Part shown: in pieces, positions 21,429 to 55,332 of the stretch
How positions within the stretch are numbered: the stretch's first letter is position 1
Layout of the letters: every line of letters begins with the position of its first letter
Assembly (NCBI GenBank): GCA_025201375.1
Contig: JAIWZP010000013.1
Location: 372,001-436,000 of the forward strand
Length of the DNA: 64,000 bases
Direction of reading: 5' to 3'
DNA from: Gongronella butleri
Taxonomy: Eukaryota > Mucoromycota > Mucoromycetes > Mucorales > Cunninghamellaceae
Program-made: the position numbers and the translations under genes
Notes under the pieces: generated by a model
The model's input: only the letters and a program-made list of their open reading frames with translations
The model's database searches: none
What the model was told of the DNA's origin: nothing

Positions 21429-23829
21429 ATCGATACCTTTTTCAACGTGTAAATATAGCTGTGCAATAAAAGAGCAGTCGACGAGAGTGAATTTACGACG
21501 CGCCTTGGAATGTGGTGCAAACCTTTCTGCCGCACCCGAAAACGAGGAAAAGACTCGTCACAACGCGGCGAATCTTGGCCACGTTGATGATTTGGACCCT
21601 CTCTTCTCGAAAAAAAAAAAACAAAAGTCAATCAGGTGGTTTGACGAGGATAAGATCTGGTGGCCCTTGCCTGACCTGGTAAGACGTGGGGCCACTTTTG
21701 GCTATGAAGATGTGCGAGGCCAATTGAAGCTTGTATTATTTTTTTTTTTTTTGATTTCCTCTCCTCATGAGAAATTAAAACCGGAGGTCGACGGGATCAT
21801 TGTGCAGGAAAATCCAAAATTCGTTAATTTTCACAACTTTGCACTGGCTTTCGTTTTAAGCGCAATTTCAGAGCAACTTTGTTGCTCTACCAGTTTAGCT
21901 TATGAATGCAGCAACGCGTCTAAGAAAAAGGCACGCAAAACGCAGTTGTCTGGGAGCGCCATATACTCGCAGGCTGTTGGCAATTCCTTTTCCAAATAAA
22001 ATTGAGCAAATTGAGGTTTTTTTTTTTGCTTGTTATTTTTTGGGCGAGGGCTGGGCCCTCTTTTCCCTCATTGTTGTACGGTAAGGACAACCCTTTTGGA
22101 TAAACAGCATAAAGAAGCAGTTCATTAGTAGTTGGTGAAGGCCAGCTGGGTTTTTTAATCTGGTTGGACTGGAGACGAAAGTGGAATGTCACTGGACGTT
22201 TGGATCGCCTTGAGCGGACAATTCGTATGGGTTTCTTTGTGTGTGTGGACGATGCAGTGCGTTACTAGTTGGTGAAGGCAAGCTGGATTCGATCTGGTTT
22301 GACTGGAGACGAAAGCGCAATGTCACTGATGTTTGAATCGCCTTTGGCGAACAATTCGTTCGGGTTTCTCCACGGTTTCCAAAGGGGTGTGGGTTAAAAA
22401 CGATTATTTCTTACTCACATGCATTTTTTGCCATTTTGAAAAAAAAGAGCACGCCTTGTGCCCATCATGCATCTGCCACCCAAGACGTGCGCCCATACTG
22501 CATTATGCTCTCTTTTAATCTGAAATGGCGTCTCAGGGTTGAATTGAAATCCGTCGTGGGCCATCATTTTTACCTCGTACGTCGCTTCTCCACCTTTGGT
22601 CATCTGCACACTCGTTTTTTTTTTTTTTTTTTTTTACCCGGCTGCACCTGGATCCTTCTCTCTTTCCCGGCGCATTGTTTCAATAAATCCAAAATACATG
22701 ACTTGCACCTTCATTTTAGCTGCATTGATAGAAAATAAGAAAAAGCATCGATCATGCGAGCAAAGTCAAAAAGGTTCACTCAACCTTGGACCTCGCATGG
22801 ACAGGCGCGTCGGCCCAACGGCAAACAAAAGGCGATGACAGACAAAAATAGCCAATGCTTGCCAACCAGAGTAGATAGGGACTTGAGCGTCGGGAATCCA
22901 CGAGCAAGATCAGATGGTGGTAAGGGAATTGCACGGTGGCCAAAGGAGGCGAATAAAGGACTGAAGGCAAAAAGCAACGAGAAAAAAAAGAGGTGTACGC
23001 CTGACAAACTGATGCAATGCGGCCACAGCCAAATACGCGCCATTGATCCCTTTGTTTGATTCAATGCAAGTGCGACAGAAAATATTTCATCACCAAAGGC
23101 TTATCGCAGCGCCATGTACAGTAACTTCTTCATGTAGCTGATGTTGCCTCTCTCTTACTTCTCAGAAAAAAAAAAAAAAGACGAAGGTCAGCCATGTGGT
23201 TTGTCCAGGAGCACAACTCATTGCTGAAAATTTGGCTGTATCATAGCACGATTTTGTAAAAATCTTTTCGCAATAAAATCGTGATTCTATCATCACCAAA
23301 CTTTGTCCCTTGACTATTTCACCATCTCTCTTTGAAGGAAAAATTAAAAAATCAGAGGTTGATCAGGCCGTTTTTGAGGGCATGCATCGTTTTCAAGAAT
23401 TGTCACAAATTCAATAATAACCAACGCAACCCATGATTCAATTGCCTCCTAATATAACTTTTACTCTTGACTATTTCGCCGAACCTTGTTTCAACAAGAC
23501 ATTGAAAATCAACCTCAAATACAGTATAGAATTAAACATCACTTACCTAGACCATGGTTGGGCCACCCAAAATCTTCACATTTATACAGTACTGTATAGG
23601 TTAAATCGACGCGTCTCTTCTTATTCTGACAAGACGTTCAAACCAGGAGTCGACCGAGCCGTTGTGCAGATGAATCCAACAAAATCCTAATATTTTCACA
23701 AATCCAGAACAGGTTTTCAAAATACTGTATTTGGTGGATCGCCGCCATGAAAATGGCACTGATCGAAAGAAACGCACTCTGGTCTCATTTCCTGATTTGC
23801 GCGCCCGATGAACGAACTTTGCACGCTTG
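21429..23829. other. Gene-poor, repeat-derived stretch
   Basis: I find no supported gene. There are recurring degenerate blocks. A GAGGTCGACGGGATCATTGTGCAG block near 21785 resembles 23348 and 23648, and a CTTGACTATTTC block recurs near 23312 and 23467. There is a duplicated segment at 22115-22375, a 20-T tract near 22616 and several TACAGTA/TACTGTA heptamers from 23117 on. The short open frame at 23433-23690 could be transposon coding debris. Confidence 0.5.
22115..22375 (+). repeat. Direct duplication of a ~110-bp segment
   Basis: The segment beginning TAGTTGGTGAAGGCCAGCTGG (about 22129) recurs near 22266 as TAGTTGGTGAAGGCAAGCTGG. The two stay aligned through GGAGACGAAAG, AATGTCACTG and ACAATTCGT-CGGGTTTC, with small indels. 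The period is about 137 bases. No coding signal. Confidence 0.75.
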
Positions 23830-24660
23830 CAAAAGTTGATCAAACATTGAATCAATTTTCAAGCTCAATTTTCTCGATAGCTGGAAAAACTACCAACGGT
23901 GCTTTTGGAATGTCAAAGGTATCTGTTGAATCTCTATCGAATGAAACCAGTTTCATCGATGGATGGCTAAAACTCGCAGAGAAAATAGACTTTTTCATCA
24001 AAATTTTAGATTGCGATTTACTCGTCAACGGTATACCGGTAGTCAACCCTCAATTTTTACTGCAGTTTTACTAACAAACACGGCGGGGCAAAGCATCTAG
24101 TGGGGTGACTTGCAGTGCGCTAGCTTGGGTTTGAACTTTTTGCATCGGTCATTTCACCAGGCTGCAGCCCACTCATCATCAGCGTGCGTTCAACGCACTA
24201 CTGTTGTAAAATGTGCAAAATAAAAAAAATAAAAAAATACGTAAAAAAATAAAAATTCCATGCAATCCACCGCCTTAATTTGGAAGTGTCAAACCTTAAA
24301 TTTTTCCAAAAAAAATCTTGACCAAAGTAGGCACTTTTCTCCAGTCGATCGCCGTTCATGCGTCACCCTTTGGGCTTTTTCTTCAAGTTGGGGTGAGCTG
24401 CCATTTGGTCTGCCAATAGCAAATTGTCGGAGTTACCTGTTTGAGATGCATTGATCACTCGGAGATCGAAATGCGTGACCCCTGAGTGACCCCTGAATTT
24501 TTCAAAAGTGGCCGTAGCGCTTTGCTTGGGGGTGTCTAGGCTTTTTATTGTTGCAATTTCTACGCTGAATGCGATGGTACAGCTATTTTCGAGCGGGCTC
24601 GATCAAGCGGATGACGAGATAAATGTAAAATAGTACAAATTTGGCGTTTTTGGAATTTGC
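23830..24660 (+). repeat. Dispersed repeat R2, copy 1
   Basis: It aligns with 48940-49850 (copy 2) and in part with 54425-54790 (copy 3), all in the same orientation. Shared landmarks are TTTTACTAACAAACA followed by GGGGCAAAGCATCT, AATTGTCGGAGTTACCTGTTT, and GACCCCTGAATTTTTCAAAA. The first part overlaps an 88-codon open frame (23808-24074) whose reading frame is broken in copy 2. It is likely a decayed mobile element or LTR; the class is not established. Confidence 0.8.
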
Positions 24661-24735
24661 CGGGTGCCGGCTGAAAAAAATTAGGTGGAGGAGGAGCTTC
24701 ATCAGTCATACTGTAACAGCCCACTCCTGTTGTAC

Positions 24736-24772
24736 TACTGTACTGTACAGTACTGTACAGTACAGTACTGTA
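24736..24772. repeat. Stacked TA-C(A/T)G-TA array, 7 units (footprint stack)
   Basis: Thirty-seven bases parse exactly as TA followed by seven CTG-TA or CAG-TA steps. The order of triplets is CTG, CTG, CAG, CTG, CAG, CAG, CTG. Each unit adds 5 bp and ends in a new TA, as expected if Tc1-type elements repeatedly entered a TA and left a 3-base footprint. Single heptamers of the same kind flank it at 24709, 24818 and 24837. Confidence 0.8.
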
Positions 24773-24959
24773 ATTCATCCCCTTGCCATGTGGATCAATC
24801 GAGCCTTTTACTGTGTGTACTGTAGTACAATATCTTTACTGTATAGGACTATTATAGGTTTACAGTGTTAATAAATTGGCAATGACCTGTGCATCGTTGC
24901 GTCGTGGTCTGGTTGATTAGTCACAAAGAAAAACGAGTCGACAATTTTCTTTTTTGCTT

Positions 24960-25834
24960 GCTCGGATTGGACGCGAGATGAGCATTGGCAGCATCAGACA
25001 CGAGTTGTCACGCATAAAGTAGGTAATGCAATCAGGTTTCTCACGGTATGTAAGCATAAACAGTGCCACAAAAATCAGGGATGAAAACTTAACAGGAGTG
25101 AATAGACCTTGCTCTTTATCTTTTTTCTTTTTTTTTTCAACATGAGGGAGTGCACCCGGGCAAGCGATGTCTTGGCAAAGTTTGAGCAGCGCGAACGACG
25201 ACTTCGAGACAGATGGCCATGAATACTGTACTCCTCCTGCTCCAGCTTCACTTGCTCAAGCTGCTCCTGCTCCACCTGCTGCTGCTCCAGCTCCAGCTCG
25301 TCCACTGTCGTCTCCTTTTCGCTTTTCCAGACCCAGGCTTTGCTGCTGCCTATGTGCGCGCTTCTTTTGCAGACGACACTGTGTATGGAATTACAAAAAA
25401 TGGCGACCCCTGCATCAGCTTTTTTGAAGAAATCATGAGCACTTTGCAGCACATGTACTACGGTATGTGTTTTTACCCGCAAGACTTCCCTAGGCGTAAT
25501 AAAAAACGCTTGTACCACGTGTGAGAATAAAAGCACGCCATCTGGCTTGTCCGCGTGCTCGTGGCAACTTCCGATTTTGGCTGGCATCATACACCTTTTT
25601 CGCCAGCCTCGCCCCCCTCCACAACCGAAGGGATTTGGAATATGATGATCTTTTTCCACGGACCAGCCCCCGCTCATCTTCCTCTTTGCTTACACCGGCG
25701 ACCAGTCCCAGGGTCAGAAAATAAACCTTTGGCGAGCCGCTTCAAAAAAAAAACGCGTTTAGTTCGTGTCAATGAATAAAAGCTTCCCTTTCAACTGCAA
25801 ACAGTCGTTCTCGACCCGTGGTCGTCGTCTAAAA
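24960..25834 (+). other. Possible small or broken plus-strand gene, unresolved
   Basis: Some pieces look coding. ATG at 24978 runs to a GTAGGT donor at 25019 and can join in phase to 25147, giving an N-terminus with AKFEQRERRLRDR, but it stops at a TGA just before 25224. A later frame on the same strand (about 25330-25464) contains ADDTVYGITKNG and SFFEEIMSTLQHMYYG and reaches a stop at 25524 followed by AATAAA. Between them is a CTG/CTC-rich simple-sequence stretch and a TACTGTA heptamer at 25224. It may be a real gene with exons I cannot place, or a pseudogene. The overlapping 200-codon minus frame is less convincing. Confidence 0.25.
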
Positions 25835-27683: not shown

Positions 27684-28465
27684 ACAGCATTCGAATAGCT
27701 GGCAAAAGGGCCGCTTGAGGGTTGTCAGGCAATGAAAATTGAGTCAATGCCTGCAATTGTGGCCGCCGCCTCAACCATGTGGTAAATTCAGCCAATAAAA
27801 TCGCTTTTCTGGCCCGGCTAAATAATCGGGCCGAGAAAATTTAAATGGAGCTGTCAAGGACCAAGTACTTTTCTTGACATGTTACGGCCATACGATTCTG
27901 AAAGCGCCAGATCCCGTCCGATCTCTGCAGCGATCCAGAATACGGCCTGGTTAGTACTGCGGTGAGAGATCACGCGGGAATACCAGGTGCTGTAATTTTT
28001 TTTTAAAAAATTGCTTTTGAACGCGTCGATTTCAGTTTTATTTTCGCTTTTTTTTTTTCGAAGGGTTTGTTTTTGTGCGCATTAGCACTTGAGCACGTGC
28101 TAGTGTGATTGTGGATGGGTGTGCATGTCGATCAGCCGAGCAATAATCATGCATTGGCGCTACTCGTGCCCTGTGAAGTGCACCAAAGCCGAGATCTTTG
28201 CAATTTATGGTGCATTTATGCTTTTTTTTTGTGACGATTGTGCTCGCATTTTCTGAGTGACGTGTAGTCGATGAGCGCAAGGGGGGGGGGGAGGATGAGG
28301 GGCACAATGGAATGCGGTTTGCCTGAGATGTGTGCGCAGGCGTGGTTTTTTTAAAGCCAGCCCCCAAAAGGGCGATGCGGGCCTTGTGTTTTTCTCGCTC
28401 CTTCTCCCGTTTTCTCTCGCGGCCTTTTTTATCACTCTTCTCTTTCCTGCCAGATCCTTTTGAAC
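27403..28465. other. Gene-free stretch with 46-nt poly(T)
   Basis: It holds a run of 46 T (27636-27681), a run of 11 G near 28282 and A/T-rich sequence. No gene is supported. It separates the minus-strand hypothetical gene from ERH and should contain both promoters. Confidence 0.45.
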
Positions 28466-47091: not shown

Positions 47092-48499
47092 ATGAAGTTG
47101 CAGTTTACGCTGTTGTCGCTTTGTCTAATATGGCTCGTCTCTATACCCGGCCTGACAGGCAGCCAGATGGAACAGGTCGAGTCGTTTTTCAGTCAAAGTG
47201 GGCACACGAACAATTGGGCCGTCTTGGTGTGCACGTCTCGTTTTTGGTTCAATTACAGGCATATTGCAAACACACTGTCCATGTACCGCACCGTCAAGCG
47301 CCTGGGCATCCCAGACTCCAATATCATCCTGATGCTCGCCGACGACGTCGCTTGCAACCAGCGCAACACGTACCCCGCCACCGTTTACAATAATGCCGCA
47401 CGCGCCCTAGATCTCTATGGCGACAATGTCGAGGTCGACTACAGAGGCTACGAGGTCACTGTCGAGAATTTTATCCGCATGCTCACAGGTAAGAAAAAGC
47501 GAAAAAAAAGAAAAAAAAACGAGGGAACACGGTCTCAATTGTCATCCAATGGGTCGCGCTTTTAGGCCGCGTTTCGCCCGACACGCCAAAATCCAAGCGC
47601 TTGCTGTCAGACGACCGCTCCAACATTTTCGTGTACATGACGGGCCACGGCGGCGACGAATTCCTGAAATTCCAGGATGCCGAGGAAATCAGCGCGTACG
47701 ATTTGGCCGACTCGTTTAAGCAAATGTACGAAAAAAAGCGCTACAATGAGATCTTTTTCATGATCGACACATGCCAGGCCAACACCATGTACAAGCACAT
47801 TGATTCACCAAACATCCTGGCAACCGGCAGCAGCAAGCTCGGCGAGAGCTCGTACTCGCACCACATCGATTACGACATTGGCGTCGCGGTCATTGACAGC
47901 TTCACCTACTACAATCTCGAATTCCTCGAAAAGATCGACATGACCAGCAATGCCACCTTGCACGATCTCGTAAGCACTCAGCGCAAATGCGTAGTGCGAG
48001 TGTGTTGGATGACTCAATTGCTCGTTTTTCTTAGTTTGCCACGTACGATCCGGCCAAAATTGCCTCGGAGCCGGGCATTCGATCGGATTTGTTCCATCGC
48101 CCATTAGACAAGGTGAGGCAAAAGAGGCCGTGAAAGAATAGAGGATGAGCAGCGGCTAACATTTTTGTTCTTCAGGTCAAGGTCACTGATTTTTTTGGCA
48201 GCGTGCAGCACATTGAATTGACGCGTCAACGATACCCACTTGTTGAAAATGACGACGCGGCGGATGTAAGGAGCAGCAGCGAGCACACCGCGCACCAGCA
48301 GCTGCCAAACGGCACGCTGGAGGCACATACGCCCGCCTCACCAGATGATTACCAGCCGTCGCCCCACTCTTTCAAAGTCCACCGCGCACAACCAGCGTCG
48401 TTCTCCGCCACCACTTTCTCCTCCAGCCCAATCTCCCTCGTTGGCGGCGCACTAGCCATCGGCTTGTCGTATCTAATCCTCTTTGTCGTTCAAAAATAA
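47092..48499 (+). CDS. GPI8: GPI-anchor transamidase catalytic subunit (Gpi8/PIG-K)
   Basis: Four exons, 47092-47488, 47566-47969, 48035-48112 and 48176-48499, give 400 residues; yeast Gpi8 is 411. Signal peptide [20 protein letters not shown]. The caspase-like C13 peptidase domain starts [18 protein letters not shown]. The catalytic dyad is intact: His160 in [10 protein letters not shown] and Cys202 in [12 protein letters not shown]. Other hallmarks are [29 protein letters not shown] and a C-terminal transmembrane helix (about 378-398, [18 protein letters not shown]) after a Ser/Pro-rich stem. The enzyme cleaves the C-terminal signal of precursors in the ER lumen and attaches GPI, and would act on the NodB-fold protein encoded 4 kb upstream. 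Family assignment is certain. Confidence 0.97.
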
Positions 48500-48939
48500 A
48501 ATGAACCCCCGTGATTTTTTTATACTGTATGTTGCGCGTAAAAAAAAAGGAGCAGCATCGCGTAAAAAAAACTTGATGCCATGCAGCGTTGCTTCCAATC
48601 ATTCTCTATCTGTTTCAAATATGGGACCGTTTGGACGCGCCCCTTCGTCTCCAGGACGCCAGGAGCCAGGACCGTCACAGGGGGATCGACATTTTCATTC
48701 ACAATGCCAGCAGTGGCTCGTGAAATATTGTGTGGAATGTGGAGCCTGGAGCGCCGTGAAACAGGTACCGCTCGTACGTACTGTAAGAGACGCGCTCGGA
48801 CGCCAGTTTCCAATGAGTTGCTCGCCCGATGGACAACATTTATACATTATACGCCCGTGCAAAATCCACTAATACAGTAGGTACTGTACTGTACGGTACT
48901 GTACTGTACAGTACAGTATTACGCTGTTGTTGTTTCGTC
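48500..48939. other. GPI8 3' flank and start of the transposon graveyard
   Basis: An AAATAAAATG string follows the GPI8 stop directly. TACTGTA or TACAGTA heptamers lie at 48523, 48779 and 48873, then the stacked array. No gene is seen. Confidence 0.4.
48882..48918. repeat. Second stacked TA-C(N)G-TA array, 7 units
   Basis: Thirty-seven bases parse as TA plus seven 5-bp units with triplets CTG, CTG, CGG, CTG, CTG, CAG, CAG. One unit is a point variant. It has the same length as the array at 24736-24772 but a different order, so it is not a copy of it. A separate TACAGTA ends three bases before it (48873-48879). Confidence 0.8.
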
Positions 48940-49850
48940 CACTTTTAATTAAATTCAATTTGCTCAACAACGAACATACAGAAGAAGAAACTACGGCACT
49001 TTTAACGTGTCGAAAGCAGCAGCTGCATCTTTACAATATTGAATGGGGCAGCAGGAGGTTTCGCCGATGGATGACGACAACTGGCAGAGAATTTCCACTT
49101 TTTTAACAAAATATAAAATATTTATTGGTGATTTGCTCGACAACTGTCTAGTCGACCCCCAATTTTTATGGCAGTTTTACTAACAAACAGGGGGGCAAAG
49201 CATCTACAGTAGTAATGGGATAACTTGCAGCGCACTACTGTAGGTTGGGTATGAATTTATTAGGCATCGGTCATTTCTGCAGCCTGCAGCCTGCAGCCTG
49301 CAGACACCCAGGACGACCCAGCACACAAAAATGTATGTGCAAAATAAAAAATAAAAAAATTCATGCAATCCACGTAACTTAATTTGGAAGTCTCAACCCT
49401 TAAATTTTTGCAAAAAAATTCGCACCAAAGTAGGCACTTTTTTCAGTCGATCGCCGTTCATGCGCCACTCTTTAGGCATTTTCTTACTGTAAGGTAGGGC
49501 GACCTGCCATTTTGTCTGCCAATAGGAAATTGTCGGAGTTACCTGTTTGGGATGCATTGATCACTCGGAGTTCGAAATTTCCCAAATTTGGCATTTTCTG
49601 AGATTGAAATGTGTGACCCCTGAATTTTTCAAAAGCGGTTATAGTGCTTCGGGGGTTTAAGCTTTTTTGTTGCAAATTTTGCGTTGATGCGATGCAGTTC
49701 TTCTTGTTGAGCGGGCTCGATCATGCAGATGTCGAGATGAATGCAAAAATAGTACAAAACTACAAATGGGAGGAAGTTTTTGGTATTTTCGCTCGACTCC
49801 AAAAATCGGGCGAGTCTTCTGTATTGAGCACTGGTGGGTCAAATGCTTGG
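48940..49850 (+). repeat. Dispersed repeat R2, copy 2
   Basis: It aligns with 23830-24660. Compared with copy 1 it carries extra 5-bp insertions that create TACAGTA at 49205 and TACTGTA at 49236, and it has a small triplication of CTGCAGC at 49280-49300. Its right half (from about 49500) also aligns with copy 3 at 54425-54790. Confidence 0.82.
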
Positions 49851-49859
49851 ATTTCGTGA

Positions 49860-50373
49860 AGCTTGCTTGGGGTCCTCTGCGCTGTTGAATCGCTGCAGGA
49901 ACATTTCGTGCGTTTTGCTGCTGCCAACAGGGTGGTAATGCAACGATGTCCTTGCTGGGGTAGCTCGTCAACGCCCGCCTTGCGCGCATAGCAACGTGCA
50001 TAGCGATCAAGATATTCATCGATAAACATTCCCGGCTTGAGCTTCATGTTGTCCAGCAGCTGCTGGTAGTGGATCGTGCGGGTGGAGCTGTCGAATAAGC
50101 GGGTGAGCGTGGGCTCGACATTGCCCAGCCATGTCCAATTCAGTGTGTCACGGGGGACTTGACTTCCTCGCGCCATTGCGAGAGATGATAAGCCTTGGTG
50201 AGCGCGGCGTCGATGATTTGTTGCCACGCATCATCCAGGGTAATGCCTGCGCGAGCCATGAGCGGCTTGAGATCATATAAGAACGCCTCCACATCCTCAT
50301 AGAATTTCTTAATATCGGAAAAATAGAATTTGCCGTATGTACCGTATGTCTTGAGCTGACTTACTGTAGCCAT
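49860..50373 (-). pseudogene. Gag-like retrotransposon fragment C
   Basis: Two overlapping minus-strand frames together read through a gag-type capsid region. It contains KKFYEDVEAFLYDLKPLMAR, then DDAWQQIIDAALTKAYHLSQW, then a frame change, then LFDSSTRTIHYQQLLDNMKL and DEYLDRYARCYARKAG. Fragments A and B share the FYEDV, L-x-P-[LV]MA, DDAW and HYxQLL blocks. A TACTGTA heptamer sits in its first codons (50362-50368). No protease, reverse transcriptase or integrase motif is visible. It is truncated and frame-broken. Confidence 0.7.
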
Positions 50374-50568
50374 TTTTTGCCTGGATGATCTCGAGTTTGC
50401 CAGAAGCTTTTGCCTGGCATGTTGCGATATGAAAGTGCTTTACTGTATATGTAATAATCAAGGACGCAGAATCGAATGGCAATGTCAAAATTTTATTTTG
50501 ATTCGATGAATTTCGAGAAATACTGTAGATGAATTTGCTTTGGTCATCAAAAATTCGCCCCGTCAACA

Positions 50569-50760
50569 AGATTTAGAGACAAAAACGCGATTTACCGTGG
50601 CTCCCAATAAAGTGAGCCAAATTTTGCAATTCCGGCGTGAATGTGCTTGTTTCTCGCTGGATATGCATCGCTCGCTTGCAATTTTAATCTATATCATTAA
50701 CTAGCCCTAAAACCGGTATTTCCACTTTATTATGTGTCAAAGTTTCTTTTTGATACGTTC
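50569..50760. other. Spacer between gag fragments C and B
   Basis: A/T-rich DNA with no recognisable feature. Heptamers lie just before it at 50441 and 50521. Confidence 0.3.
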
Positions 50761-51954
50761 AATACAGGTGTAGCTATAGCGCATTGGCTGCTGCTGGGCT
50801 TTGCCATTGTAGCCCTGATTACTATAGGTATTGGGCTTGTTGTGAATGAGAAAGGACAATGATAGGACTAAAGGTAGGCTTTTACAGTATGTCAAAAGTG
50901 ACCAATTGAGAGAGCGGTGGATCGGCCATTCGTGCAAACTCGCCGATGAACATGCTATGCGTGGCGCGGTTGGCGATCAGTGTGGTGATTGCCTGATGGC
51001 CTGCCTGATTCGCGCTCTCGGTGCCAGCTTTGCGGGCGAGCTCATAATAACGTTCCATGTAGTCTACAATGGATCGCCCTTTTTTGAGTCGCATGGCTTG
51101 CAAAAGCTGCGAATAATGAAGTGCACGGCTTGCGCCGTCAAAAAGCTTGATGAGCAGCGGCTCCACATTGGCACGCCATTTCCATGCCGAGGTGTCCAGG
51201 CCCTGAATGGCAACACGCCATTGCGAGAGTTGAGCGCGCGTTAAGGCAGCCTCGATAACCTGGTTTCATGCGTCATCCAGTGCAATACCTGCGCGGCCAT
51301 GACTGGTGTCAATGCCTGAAGGTACGCTTCAACATCCTCATAGAAAGTAGTGATGGGGCGTCCTTTGCGATCAAGCTTGGCGACCTTGTCCGACGAATCG
51401 TCGACAGAATCGCGATGGTAGTAGTCAAATCGCAGAAGGGGCAAATCCTCAGGAAGTGCTTTTTTCTTCTTTTTTCATTTGACTTATTATTATTTGCCTC
51501 GTCGCCGCCCAAGGTCTCAAGAACTTCGTCCTGGAACTTGATTTCAGCACGCCATTTAGCCATGGCGCGCTCACAGCGAGCAACGTCCTTTTGGTCGCCA
51601 TTGCGGACGGCCGAGGTGCGTTGCGTGACGCATACAGTACGTACAGTATAACACGCCAAAGCGCGTTCACGTTGGCTTTTTGCCGCACGACGAGTGTCCT
51701 CAATGGACGAGGTGGAAGCACCACATCGCCATCCACGGGAAAATCCCATGTTGAGGAGAAAATTGGGCCTGCTGCTGCCAAGTTACCTTCGATCCCTTGT
51801 TGGGAGGCCTCGGTCATTACAGTACAGTGTCCTCAATGGCGCCCACAAGGGGTACCAAGGAAGACGACGGCAGAGGAAGAGGTACCACTCGATCGCTAAG
51901 CGAGAGGGTAGAAAGGCTATTTACTGTATGGGATTGGATGCCAAAGCAGATGGG

Positions 51955-53018
51955 GCCAATCTTGAATTTTGGGGTACGATTTTTCCTTTTTTGGTACCCT
52001 CCCCTTTTTTTATGCCGTCGTTCCCCGCCATCTTTTTTTTTTGCAAGTTCTGCATGCACAGATCTTCCTCATGGATGGTAAAAAAAAAGACGCGCCAACC
52101 CAGTTTAAGTTACCTCGTTCATCGTGAGCTCGGTCTTTCTTCCACGCTTTGCACCAAGTTGATCTTGATACATAACAAAGTTGTCGCTGGCAGTGCGTTC
52201 GACGGGCTGGCAATGAGGACCAAACTTGTCGACGAACAAAGCATTGCGTTTAAGGTTCTTGCCACCGCTTCTGTTGTACCATTGGACATGGAATCGCTCG
52301 CTCTCAGCGTCGATGAAGTGCTTCAAAGTCGTGCGTTCCATGGTAGTGACAAAAGGATACGGTTCGTCGGGGTACGGGTGGATCACCTCACCACTTGTCT
52401 GCAGCTTGTATTTTTCCAAAATGCTGTTTACTAAGGACATGAGACAAAAAAAAAAGAGAGAGAAGAGAAGAGAAGAGAACAAAAATAACGTGTCACCCAT
52501 ATTTTTCAGCTGTCGCGCACCCCTAAAGTGCGCTTCCCCGCCCCCCTTTTTTTTGCTTGCACTGTCCTTAGATCTACCAACAGCAATAGTTTTACGTACA
52601 GTATCTTTTTATTATGTCTCTCTTGCTCCTGATTTGTTCAGTAGAACGGCTTCTCACAAGCACAGTCGTCCTCACTCATTCAATAGTTACAACTTTTTTT
52701 CCAGCCCTCTCTTTCGCCCGTCTCTTTTCACTCTTGTGACATGTCGTTTTTGGGCGCGATGCGTTGTTGTTCTAAGTAGACTGTTGTATGGTCAAACAAC
52801 GTCAGATGCTTTCATCACAGAAACACAAAGGAATGCACCTTTGCAACCAAGTAAAACACGACGACCACTCACTTCTGTCACCATCCATGAGGAAGATCTG
52901 TGCATGCAGAACTTGCAAAAAAAAAGAAAAGAAAAAAAAGATGGCGGGGAACGACGGCATAAAAAAAAGGGGAGGGTACCAAAAAAGGAAAAATCGTACC
53001 CCAAAATTCAAAATTGGC
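51955..53018. mobile_element. Mutator-like TIR element, 1064 bp, with 9-bp target duplication
   Basis: The left arm (51955-52079) and right arm (52880-53018) are inverted copies. Both start GCCAAT[C/T]TTGAATTTTGG at the outer ends and share TACGATTTTTCC, the GGTACCCTCCCC block and the GCATGCA...GATCTTCCTCATGGATGGT block. Immediately outside are identical 9-mers, GCAGATGGG at 51946-51954 and 53019-53027. Long TIRs plus a 9-bp duplication are the hallmark of Mutator-like elements. The interior is too short for a transposase and holds one 111-codon frame, so it is non-autonomous. Removing it rejoins gag fragment B in frame. It contains one TACAGTA heptamer (52597). Confidence 0.82.
52105..52440 (-). 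CDS. ORF carried inside the Mutator-like element
   Basis: Starts MSLVNSILEKYKLQTSGE and runs 111 residues to TAA. It looks protein-like: LKHFIDAESERFHVQWYNRS, then KRNALFVDKFGPHCQP, then LGAKRGRKTEL. A GTAACT just before the stop could be a splice donor leading into the left TIR, whose minus strand could add a Lys-rich exon. It could be the N-terminal part of a Mutator-type transposase (DNA-binding part) or a captured host gene piece (Pack-MULE style). I do not recognise a domain firmly. Expression is unknown. Confidence 0.4.
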   Translation of the reverse strand: MSLVNSILEKYKLQTSGEVIHPYPDEPYPFVTTMERTTLKHFIDAESERFHVQWYNRSGGKNLKRNALFVDKFGPHCQPVERTASDNFVMYQDQLGAKRGRKTELTMNEVT

Positions 53019-53122
53019 GCAGATGGGCTACTGCCCAAATCCGCTGATGTTGCAGATGGAGGAATGTCTACAACGGAGGTTAATGCAGATGACGCGACCG
53101 ATTGCGAGGGGGAGGACGACAT

Positions 53123-53630
53123 GACAAGAGGGGAAATGAGGTCCTGGGCGGAGTGAAAAAAATTTCACTTGGGCGAATAGACCGAAATTACTGGTGCAAT
53201 AAAATAAAAGGCGCGTCGCGATGCGAATTGATACAAAATCAAAATGTGGTTGGTTGAATAGATGGCGGACTGACGTGTTGGGATGAGTCAGGTCGATGTT
53301 GCAGTGGGAATCAATGATGATGATACCCAAAAAATAAAAGGCTGTTTTGCTGTATAATACAAGTTGTTTGTCGACGTACAGAGCGATTGACGTGCGACAG
53401 TGATCGAATGTGTGGTGTGTAAGAGGGAGTGTGTGTAAAAGTAGAGATGGACGTAGAACTTATTATCAAAAAAAATGTGAATGAGAAAGGACAATGATAG
53501 GACTAAAGGTAGGACTAAAGGTAGGCTTTTATGTCAAAAGTGAGAGAGAGAGAAAAGAAAGGGAAAATAGAGGGGAAAGAGGCGTTTAAATACCGTAGGC
53601 TATGGAAATAGGCTATGAGGCGAATTAGAT
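53123..53630. other. Spacer between gag fragments B and A
   Basis: It contains the string TGTGAATGAGAAAGGACAATG and the sequence after it (53475-53520), which also occurs at 50838-50885. It is therefore retrotransposon-derived in part. No gene is seen. Confidence 0.4.
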
Positions 53631-53631
53631 G

Positions 53632-54405
53632 TCAGGCATCACACGTCAGAGCGTGTGTGCAACTGAGCTTAAATGCAGGTCTGATCTGCTGCGCATCATC
53701 CAGATCAATGCCAAATTTGACAGGGCTGTTGTTGGGCGTTGGCATTGGGCGAATGCTGGTGGCCATTTCGCTGTTGATTGCGATTTCCACGCGTGTGACG
53801 GTCGCTCTTGCTGCGTCCCTGGCCCGATGATTGTTACGACGCCTGCTGCTGCTGTTGCTGGACGCCGCTGCCCGATGATGACGAAGCAGCGCCTTTGTTG
53901 GTCGTCGGCGGAGGGCCATCATGCAAAAAGTACAGTTGGTACTGTAGTAGTGCGCACTTTTTTGCAGATCCCGGGCGAAAGTGACCAATTGAGAGACCGG
54001 TGGATCGGCCATTCGTGCAAACTCGCCGATGAACATGCCGTGCGTGGCGCGGTTGGCGGCGATCAGTGTGGTGATTGCCTGATGGCCTGCCTGATTCGCG
54101 CTCAGCAAAGGCTCATGTTTTCGCGCCATTTCCATGCAGAGGTGTCTTGATCCTTGATCGCCATGCGCCATTGAGAGTTTGAGACAGCTGCGCGCGCGTC
54201 AAGAAGGCCGCGTCAATGACCTGGTCCCATGCATCATCAAGGGAAATGCCGGCACGACGAGCCATGACTGGCGTGAGGTCCTGGAGGTACTGTATGCGGC
54301 CCTTCACATCCTCATAAAAATCCTTGATGGGGCGGCCCTTACGGTCAAGCTTGGCCTCCTTGGCGGATGCATCATCCACAGCGTCCCGATGATACTGTAA
54401 TCAAA
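53632..54405 (-). pseudogene. Gag-like retrotransposon fragment A
   Basis: Minus-strand frames from about 54400 encode KDFYEDVKGR, LQDLTPVMARRAGISLDDAW and, after a frame change, NQAGHQAITTLIAANRATHG and MFIGEFARMADPPVSQL. This is the same order as in fragment B, followed by a Ser/Gln-rich tail. Heptamers at 54393, 54288 and 53940 lie in the coding part. Deleting the 5 bp at 54393 restores the reading found at the same place in fragment B. A segment present in B between DDAW and HYSQLL is deleted here. Non-functional. Confidence 0.7.
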
Positions 54406-54424
54406 GCGCAACAAAGGCAGGTCG

Positions 54425-54790
54425 AGTAGGGTGCGTGACCTGCCATTTTGTCTGCCAGTAGAAAATCGTCGGAGTTACCCGTTTGGGATCCATTGATCAT
54501 TCGGAGTTCGAAATTTCCAAATTGGGCGTTTTCTGAGATTGAAATGTGTGACCCCTGAGTGACCCCTGAATTTTTCAAAACTGGTCGTTGCGCGTCGGGG
54601 GATTATTAAGCTTTTTGTTGCAAATTTTGCGCTGAATGCGATGCGGCTATTTTTGAGCGGAGTCAATGATGCATATGGTGTAGAGATGAATGCAAAATCG
54701 TACAAATACCGTAGGAAGTTTTTGGCATTTTCGAGTGCAAAAAAATCGGGCGGGTCCGTCTTGAGCACTGAGCCGTAGTTTATGCCGTGG
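54425..54790 (+). repeat. Dispersed repeat R2, copy 3 (partial)
   Basis: It shares ACCTGCCATTTTGTCTGCCA, CGGAGTTACC, TTGATCA-TCGGAGTTCGAAATTTCC and GACCCCTGAATTTTTCAAAA with copy 2 (49500-49830). It sits upstream of gag fragment A on the minus strand, while copy 2 sits downstream of fragment C. The pair could be remains of LTRs, though intact LTR ends are not visible. Confidence 0.78.
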
Positions 54791-55332
54791 CGTATTTTTC
54801 GTTTGCGGGAGAGCAGTCTGTAAAAAAATTTCTGGAGGCACAGCTGGCCGTCAAAGTCTGAAAAACCCACTCTTTGGATTTTACAGTAAGACGTTAATGT
54901 GTACGTTTTCATGCAGTGATAGCGTGATGATTCAGGCAGTGGAATGATAGCCCGCGTCTGTTTTTGTCTACTGAGGTTGAAGAAGCATGGACAGATAAAT
55001 CGCTTTACTGTATTTGCGTGCGAAATCAAAAAACGGATGAAAATCGTGTATTTGTGCATTTTTCCGAGTTTTCTGCATCAGTCTTCAGGCAGTACTGTTG
55101 CAAGCAACGATACGTACAGTATTGCAGCTCACGATGCAGTTTAATTACAGTATATCATAGCGCTGCGCGTGCGTGTTTGAAACTTTGATGAGAGGAAAAG
55201 GATGATCTGGCCTTCTGGCGTGAAAAAAGACGCGAAAAACGCAATGGAAAAGAATGCTTTATAAATTATCTTATGAAATGTGGGCAAATGTGTTGTAAAG
55301 AATAATCAGGTATCTGTGTTAGGCAGCAAGAG
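54791..55332. other. Right edge of the transposon graveyard
   Basis: Heptamers lie at 54892, 55006, 55115 and 55146. None are seen after 55152. No gene is supported. Confidence 0.4.

Follow-up and report, generated by a model that had tools for sequence, protein, structure and literature searches.

The window analysed here, a 64,000-nucleotide stretch of the fungus Gongronella butleri (G000:C16:372001-436000, from a genome of 33.0 Mb in 110 contigs), contains two repeat islands packed with the heptamers TACAGTA and TACTGTA (jointly TACWGTA), which are very probably excision footprints of Tc1-like (DD34E) transposons with ends of the form CAG...CTG between flanking TAs. The window carries 45 TACWGTA (18 TACAGTA and 27 TACTGTA); 100 dinucleotide shuffles of it averaged 0.86 and never gave more than 4. 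One island, at 48523..55152, holds 28 of them (seven in one stack and 21 elsewhere) and the second, at 23117..25230, holds 16 (features without a stated strand are unstranded), in agreement with the dense field and the roughly 16 further units of a preliminary description. The same description had noticed none in the gene-dense parts; 44 of the 45 lie inside the islands, and the one at 1783 is the single CAG/CTG TA-NNN-TA word in the rest of the window.

Heptamer excess and insertions in repeat copies

Among the 70 TA-NNN-TA words of the islands (taken for these counts as 23001-25300 and 48451-55200), 44 are CAG/CTG, the TA-C(A/T)G-TA form expected of a 3-nt footprint of the Sleeping Beauty type of Tc1/mariner element, and the next class, CCG/CGG, has 4. 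The spacing between TAs peaks only at 3 nt, with 70 pairs versus 20–29 for spacers of 0–2 and 4–8. Over the whole genome TACWGTA occurs 16,213 times (8,059 + 8,154 places), 29-fold above TAGACTA, a control of the same spacing and composition found 554 times (274 + 280); the heptamers are thus not at background density. The excess over the reversed word is 2.6-fold (reversed TACAGTA, 6,355), but reversed words are misleading controls because they lack a TA at both ends, and TAGACTA is preferred. The heptamers are also clustered: for the first 100 plus-strand TACAGTA places on contig C1, 83 of 117 5-kb bins were empty where 49.8 were expected, with a variance/mean of 4.0.

Related copies of the island repeats tell insertion from ancestral sequence. 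TACAGTA at 50883..50889 is an exact insertion relative to the twin at 53475-53535 (CTTTTACAGTATGTC against CTTTTATGTC at 53520), a clean 5 bp as previously described. The second pair put forward as exact, 49205 against 24098, is less clean; an insertion is there, but the window copy is +8 relative to the consensus of the repeat R2 (CATCTAATGG), i.e. 5 bp plus a TAG-like triplet. R2 lies at 49060..49700 on the + strand, with heptamers at 49205, 49236 and 49485 (+8, +5 and +4 versus the consensus), and occurs 40 times or more genome-wide; the search gave 41 matches, including the window copy and one short piece, and 21 copies (20 fetched plus that of the window) were aligned. Their consensus is free of any heptamer. 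Of 21 heptamers in these copies one is at an edge and 20 could be scored, two overlapping ones in locus L081 separately, with net insertions of 5 bp in five cases, 4 in two, 6 in one, 8 in two, 9 in three, 12–20 in six and 0 in one. An insertion of at least 4 bp thus accompanies 19 of 20 heptamers, compared with 69 of 505 control TAs (351 of the 505 show no net change). Some TAs have been hit repeatedly, consensus TA 146 carrying heptamers in three copies, and TA 169 carrying them in four and an exact 5-bp TATGATA insertion in a fifth (L078). The alignment proposed in the preliminary description therefore bears out that the heptamers are not ancestral, though not that the insertions are uniformly 5 bp.

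A conserved protein-binding motif, ancestral to the repeats, would suit the near-palindromic form of the heptamer and the confinement of window copies, but for the one at 1783, to the two islands. Its absence from the R2 consensus and its insertion in few copies each, at varying TAs, make this very unlikely.

The TATGATA in L078 belongs to a second abundant scar-like TA-N3-TA class, TATCATA/TATGATA, present 9,529 times versus 1,031 for the reversed word (another example is L045 159-170); in this one instance it was inserted as exactly 5 bp at a TA where other R2 copies bear TACWGTA. An element leaving such scars was looked for and none was identified. The CCG class is smaller, with 1,999 places against 9,577 for reversed TACCGTA and 554 for TAGACTA.

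The label "gag" given earlier to an island repeat could not be confirmed, since Pfam found no domain in six island open frames (five plus one). Other features of the window are a relic resembling a family A transposon end (see below; TACCGTGGCTC..., recognised by eye) at 50593..50630 on the + strand, an inverted repeat at 51955-53018 with arms of 57 nt (98%), 53 nt (94%) and 61 nt (85%) about 0.8–1 kb apart, a single 5S rRNA gene at 27880-27998 (+), and a gene whose best named relative, at 62% identity, is in Hesseltinella vesiculosa (Mucorales, Cunninghamellaceae).

Tc1-like transposons elsewhere in the genome

The preliminary description had postulated TA-inserting elements with CAG/CTG ends, absent from the window, and such elements do exist elsewhere in the genome with Sleeping Beauty-like transposases. 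There are 74 matches to the DDE_3 profile, and Tc1/DD34E transposons with CAGTGCCC ends next to TA are present outside the window, so that a cognate CAG-ended element occurs in the same genome as the scars. Family C, with CAGTGCCCGGAC ends at TA, has nine places of equal score (56.1 bits), and the four copies compared are 99.7–99.9% identical over about 1.35 kb. Its protein of 341 aa has 34 residues from the second D to the E (counted by eye, in this family only), as in DD34E transposases, and 2,569 related proteins, of which the top-ranking named entries are called transposase; the sole solved structure matched at E<=0.001 was SB100X (5cr4; E=2.9e-29). DDE_3 and HTH_Tnp_Tc3_2 were both above cut-off in all four Tc1 proteins tested from families A, B and C, this one included, and each of the three families is bounded by TA and carries terminal inverted repeats.

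C31 and C45, with ends CAGTGACAGGAC and CAGTGACCGGAC, form a sister group of family C, and a CWG unit lies outside all four of their fetched ends. Family B and foldback elements of about 1 kb end in CAGTGCCCTA, CAGTACCCTA or CCGTACCCTA, while family A ends in CCGTGGCTC next to TA and sits at ordinary TA sites. Two of the foldbacks (L089 96-1106 and L090 2640-3618, on the reverse strand of the locus) have perfectly matching arms of 303 and 379 nt, with ends that resemble those of families B and C, and in ten of these elements the longest frames reach only 52–80 residues. A cluster of CAG/CCG-ended elements, some joined end to end at one TA, occupies C27:474837-479292, and L015 196-827 holds an inverted-repeat candidate of 628 bp, bounded by TA and with CAGAGTTTCCA ends, that is possibly a further CAG-ended element. 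Six DDE_3 places share a score of 65.4 bits; five (C5, C6, C15, C86 and C104) lie no more than about 1.5 kb from the end of their contig and may be subtelomeric, and the sixth (C54) is 18.7 kb inside its contig. Inverted-repeat scans around the transposases of L009-L023 gave no TA-bounded ends. DDE_1 transposases (Fot1/pogo type) were rejected as the scar source, having only three matches, each with an internal stop.

Sleeping Beauty targets TA, carries a CAG end triplet, and on excision leaves 3-nt overhangs that pair with an A.A mismatch. Its footprint is described as TAC(A/T)GTA (PMC3432063), the word found here. The heptamer excess, the R2 insertions and the presence of Sleeping Beauty-like, TA-ended transposons, taken with that footprint, make the earlier reading of the heptamers as Tc1 excision scars well supported. 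By analogy, the transposase would leave 3-nt CAG overhangs on the chromosome, and these would pair with an A.A mismatch that could be repaired either way, giving TA-C(A/T)G-TA and a net 5 bp at a TA. Differences from Sleeping Beauty and fish Tc1-like elements are also apparent, the fungal ones being about 1.34 kb and scars exceeding matching ends by two orders of magnitude (16,213 versus 105).

Stacks of probable footprints

Scars also form stacks. The stack at 48873..48918 comprises seven exact TACWGTA in mixed orientation, the first set off by GG, with a TACGGTA unit at 48892, and that at 24736..24772 has seven heptamers at 5-bp steps with CAG and CTG mixed. At 51633..51648 two CAG units enclose a TACG unit, a 2-nt variant (TACAGTACGTACAGTA); TA-CG-TA is the commonest TA-NN-TA class in the fetched loci and islands (91, followed by 88 AA). 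Genome-wide, adjacent pairs TACWGTACWGTA number 1,613 versus 12 for the control. The W letters of stacked units are nearly independent; 733 pairs have the same orientation and 880 the opposite, a mild excess of the latter (p = 0.0003).

The 5-bp step, and the fact that a tandem repeat finder calls these arrays, recall a microsatellite of the pentamer TACTG, or the insertion of telomere-like repeats at breaks. Pentamer slippage does not fit the orientation counts, as it would give units of the same orientation; most arrays moreover are single, and several 3-nt classes are raised (CAG 643, TCA 198, CCG 86) rather than one pentamer, so that such an origin is highly improbable. If the heptamers are footprints, they would build up in non-coding repeat islands, and repeat visits to one site would give stacks of mixed orientation. 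Long arrays do exceed what random choice of TAs would produce, 11 of 41 on C1 having at least four units versus 1% under a null whose TA density was taken from this window alone. The sequence surrounding single scars (413 examined) is only weakly biased.

Placement of the surviving elements

At 123 distinct ends of CAG/CCG type the outer triplet was CTG in 68, CAG in 38, CGG in 6, CCG in 2 and another in 9. Setting aside seven whose flank is the end of another element, 107 of 116 are flanked by a CNG-TA unit, as against 1 of 19 family A ends (p = 8e-15). The sampled CAG/CCG-ended elements, autonomous and foldback alike, therefore sit almost exclusively between two CWG-TA units, inside scar stacks. 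Seven presumed family C copies yielded 14 end stretches, nine of which match the end pattern; four of the other five are the C31/C45 ends and one repeats an end already counted, and one end of a further family C copy (C44, L108) has lost its TA. A whole-heptamer target-site duplication was rejected, since the W letters to the left and right differed in roughly half of the cases (by eye).

One way to obtain this arrangement is that the outer CWG-TA belongs to the element as an extended inverted repeat, and that excision cuts at the outer TA. This would account at once for single scars, for doubly flanked elements and for the near-constant presence of the outer flanks. The W letter, however, is not inherited, as it varies among near-identical copies and from one end of an element to the other; CWG flanks also border CCG-ended elements, and 42 of 96 TACWG flanks have at least two units, close to the 66 of 148 expected from even use of the C1 stack junctions. 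We consider an extended repeat improbable.

The placement may instead reflect integration targeting. Two adjacent footprints make CWG-TA-CWG, which would be a favoured integration target, turning scars into landing pads; this has about an even chance of being correct. A less probable but possible alternative is selective retention, with elements inserting at any TA and leaving ordinary sites fast, but not exiting where CWG-TA lies on both sides, so that survivors are seen only in stacks. By our own arithmetic, some 60 elements residing in about 1% of the island TAs would imply several thousand insertions, of the order of the 16,213 footprints. Retention is also favoured by some of the observations that weigh against our account. 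Most arrays are single (413 of 496 in the fetched sequence and window; 362 of 404 without arrays touching element ends), and the overall pair frequency, 0.099, is close to the 0.108 of random TA choice. R2 footprints sit at ordinary TAs where hardly any sampled CAG/CCG-ended element does, so that either the survivors differ from the scar makers or retention explains the placement. Other reservations concern the footprints and the sampling. An insertion of exactly 5 bp was seen for just five of the 20 R2 heptamers that could be scored, the remainder being mostly compound and one net 0. For most CCCTA-type ends, the pattern that led to them had required a G before TA. In a search without this requirement TACMGTRCCCTA occurs 105 times, preceded by G in 98; of the seven places without G one was fetched (at least two with G were also unfetched), and scoring the six others as misses gives a cautious count of 107 of 122.

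End types found without G in the search still had a CNG flank in 28 of 30 cases (22 of 23 CCCGG and 6 of 7 CCCTC). Against retention, 22 of 23 distinct CAGTGCCCGG ends, those of the youngest family, are CNG-flanked, the excess of long arrays suggests preferential return, and the predominance of CTG over CAG flanks (68 versus 38) is not obviously expected from it. BLAST with joined flanks recovered, for some elements (L048 and L056 among them), related sites lacking element or stack, an outcome compatible with both rivals. We favour targeting of CWG-TA-CWG over selective retention. Its fuller form is a self-templating Tc1 group, whose transposase would prefer CWG-TA-CWG from its own adjacent scars, so that each excision builds target, stacks capture survivors, pads serve several Tc1 families and gene space is spared; on this the balance appears to us even.

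Known systems offer partial parallels. The fungal impala and Fot1 are TA-inserting cut-and-paste elements, for which we know of no genome-wide carpet of scars or residence in stacks, and the DDE_1 (Fot1/pogo) type, with its three matches, is nearly absent here. The internal eliminated sequences of Paramecium are TA-bounded with a Tc1-like end consensus and undergo programmed somatic excision, whereas the host here is a fungus, with nothing pointing to programmed excision. Sleeping Beauty, Bari and ZB have a reported preference for ATATATAT (PMC7913693), unlike the CWG-TA-CWG sites occupied here. The bacterial IS30 has dual targets, either hot-spot sequences, one of them nearly palindromic, or its own inverted repeats (PMC9333248), and some CAG/CCG-type ends in our set likewise adjoin other element ends; IS30 is nevertheless an unrelated copy-out-paste-in element, and TA scars are not known to serve as its targets. 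Among the papers listed in literature searches none dealt with scar-targeting Tc1 elements, which does not prove that they are absent from print.

The chemistry of the footprints is known; their scale and use are unusual. Beyond the footprint reading, the new findings are the residence of the surviving elements in scar stacks and the second scar-like class. Some 16,000 scar words in 33 Mb of fungal genome, beside about 100 matching element ends, form a countable record of excision, and the words could serve as strain markers. If the scars are indeed targets, a cut-and-paste transposon would be creating refuges for itself, which could explain, in a testable way, how such elements persist without being lethal to a compact genome.

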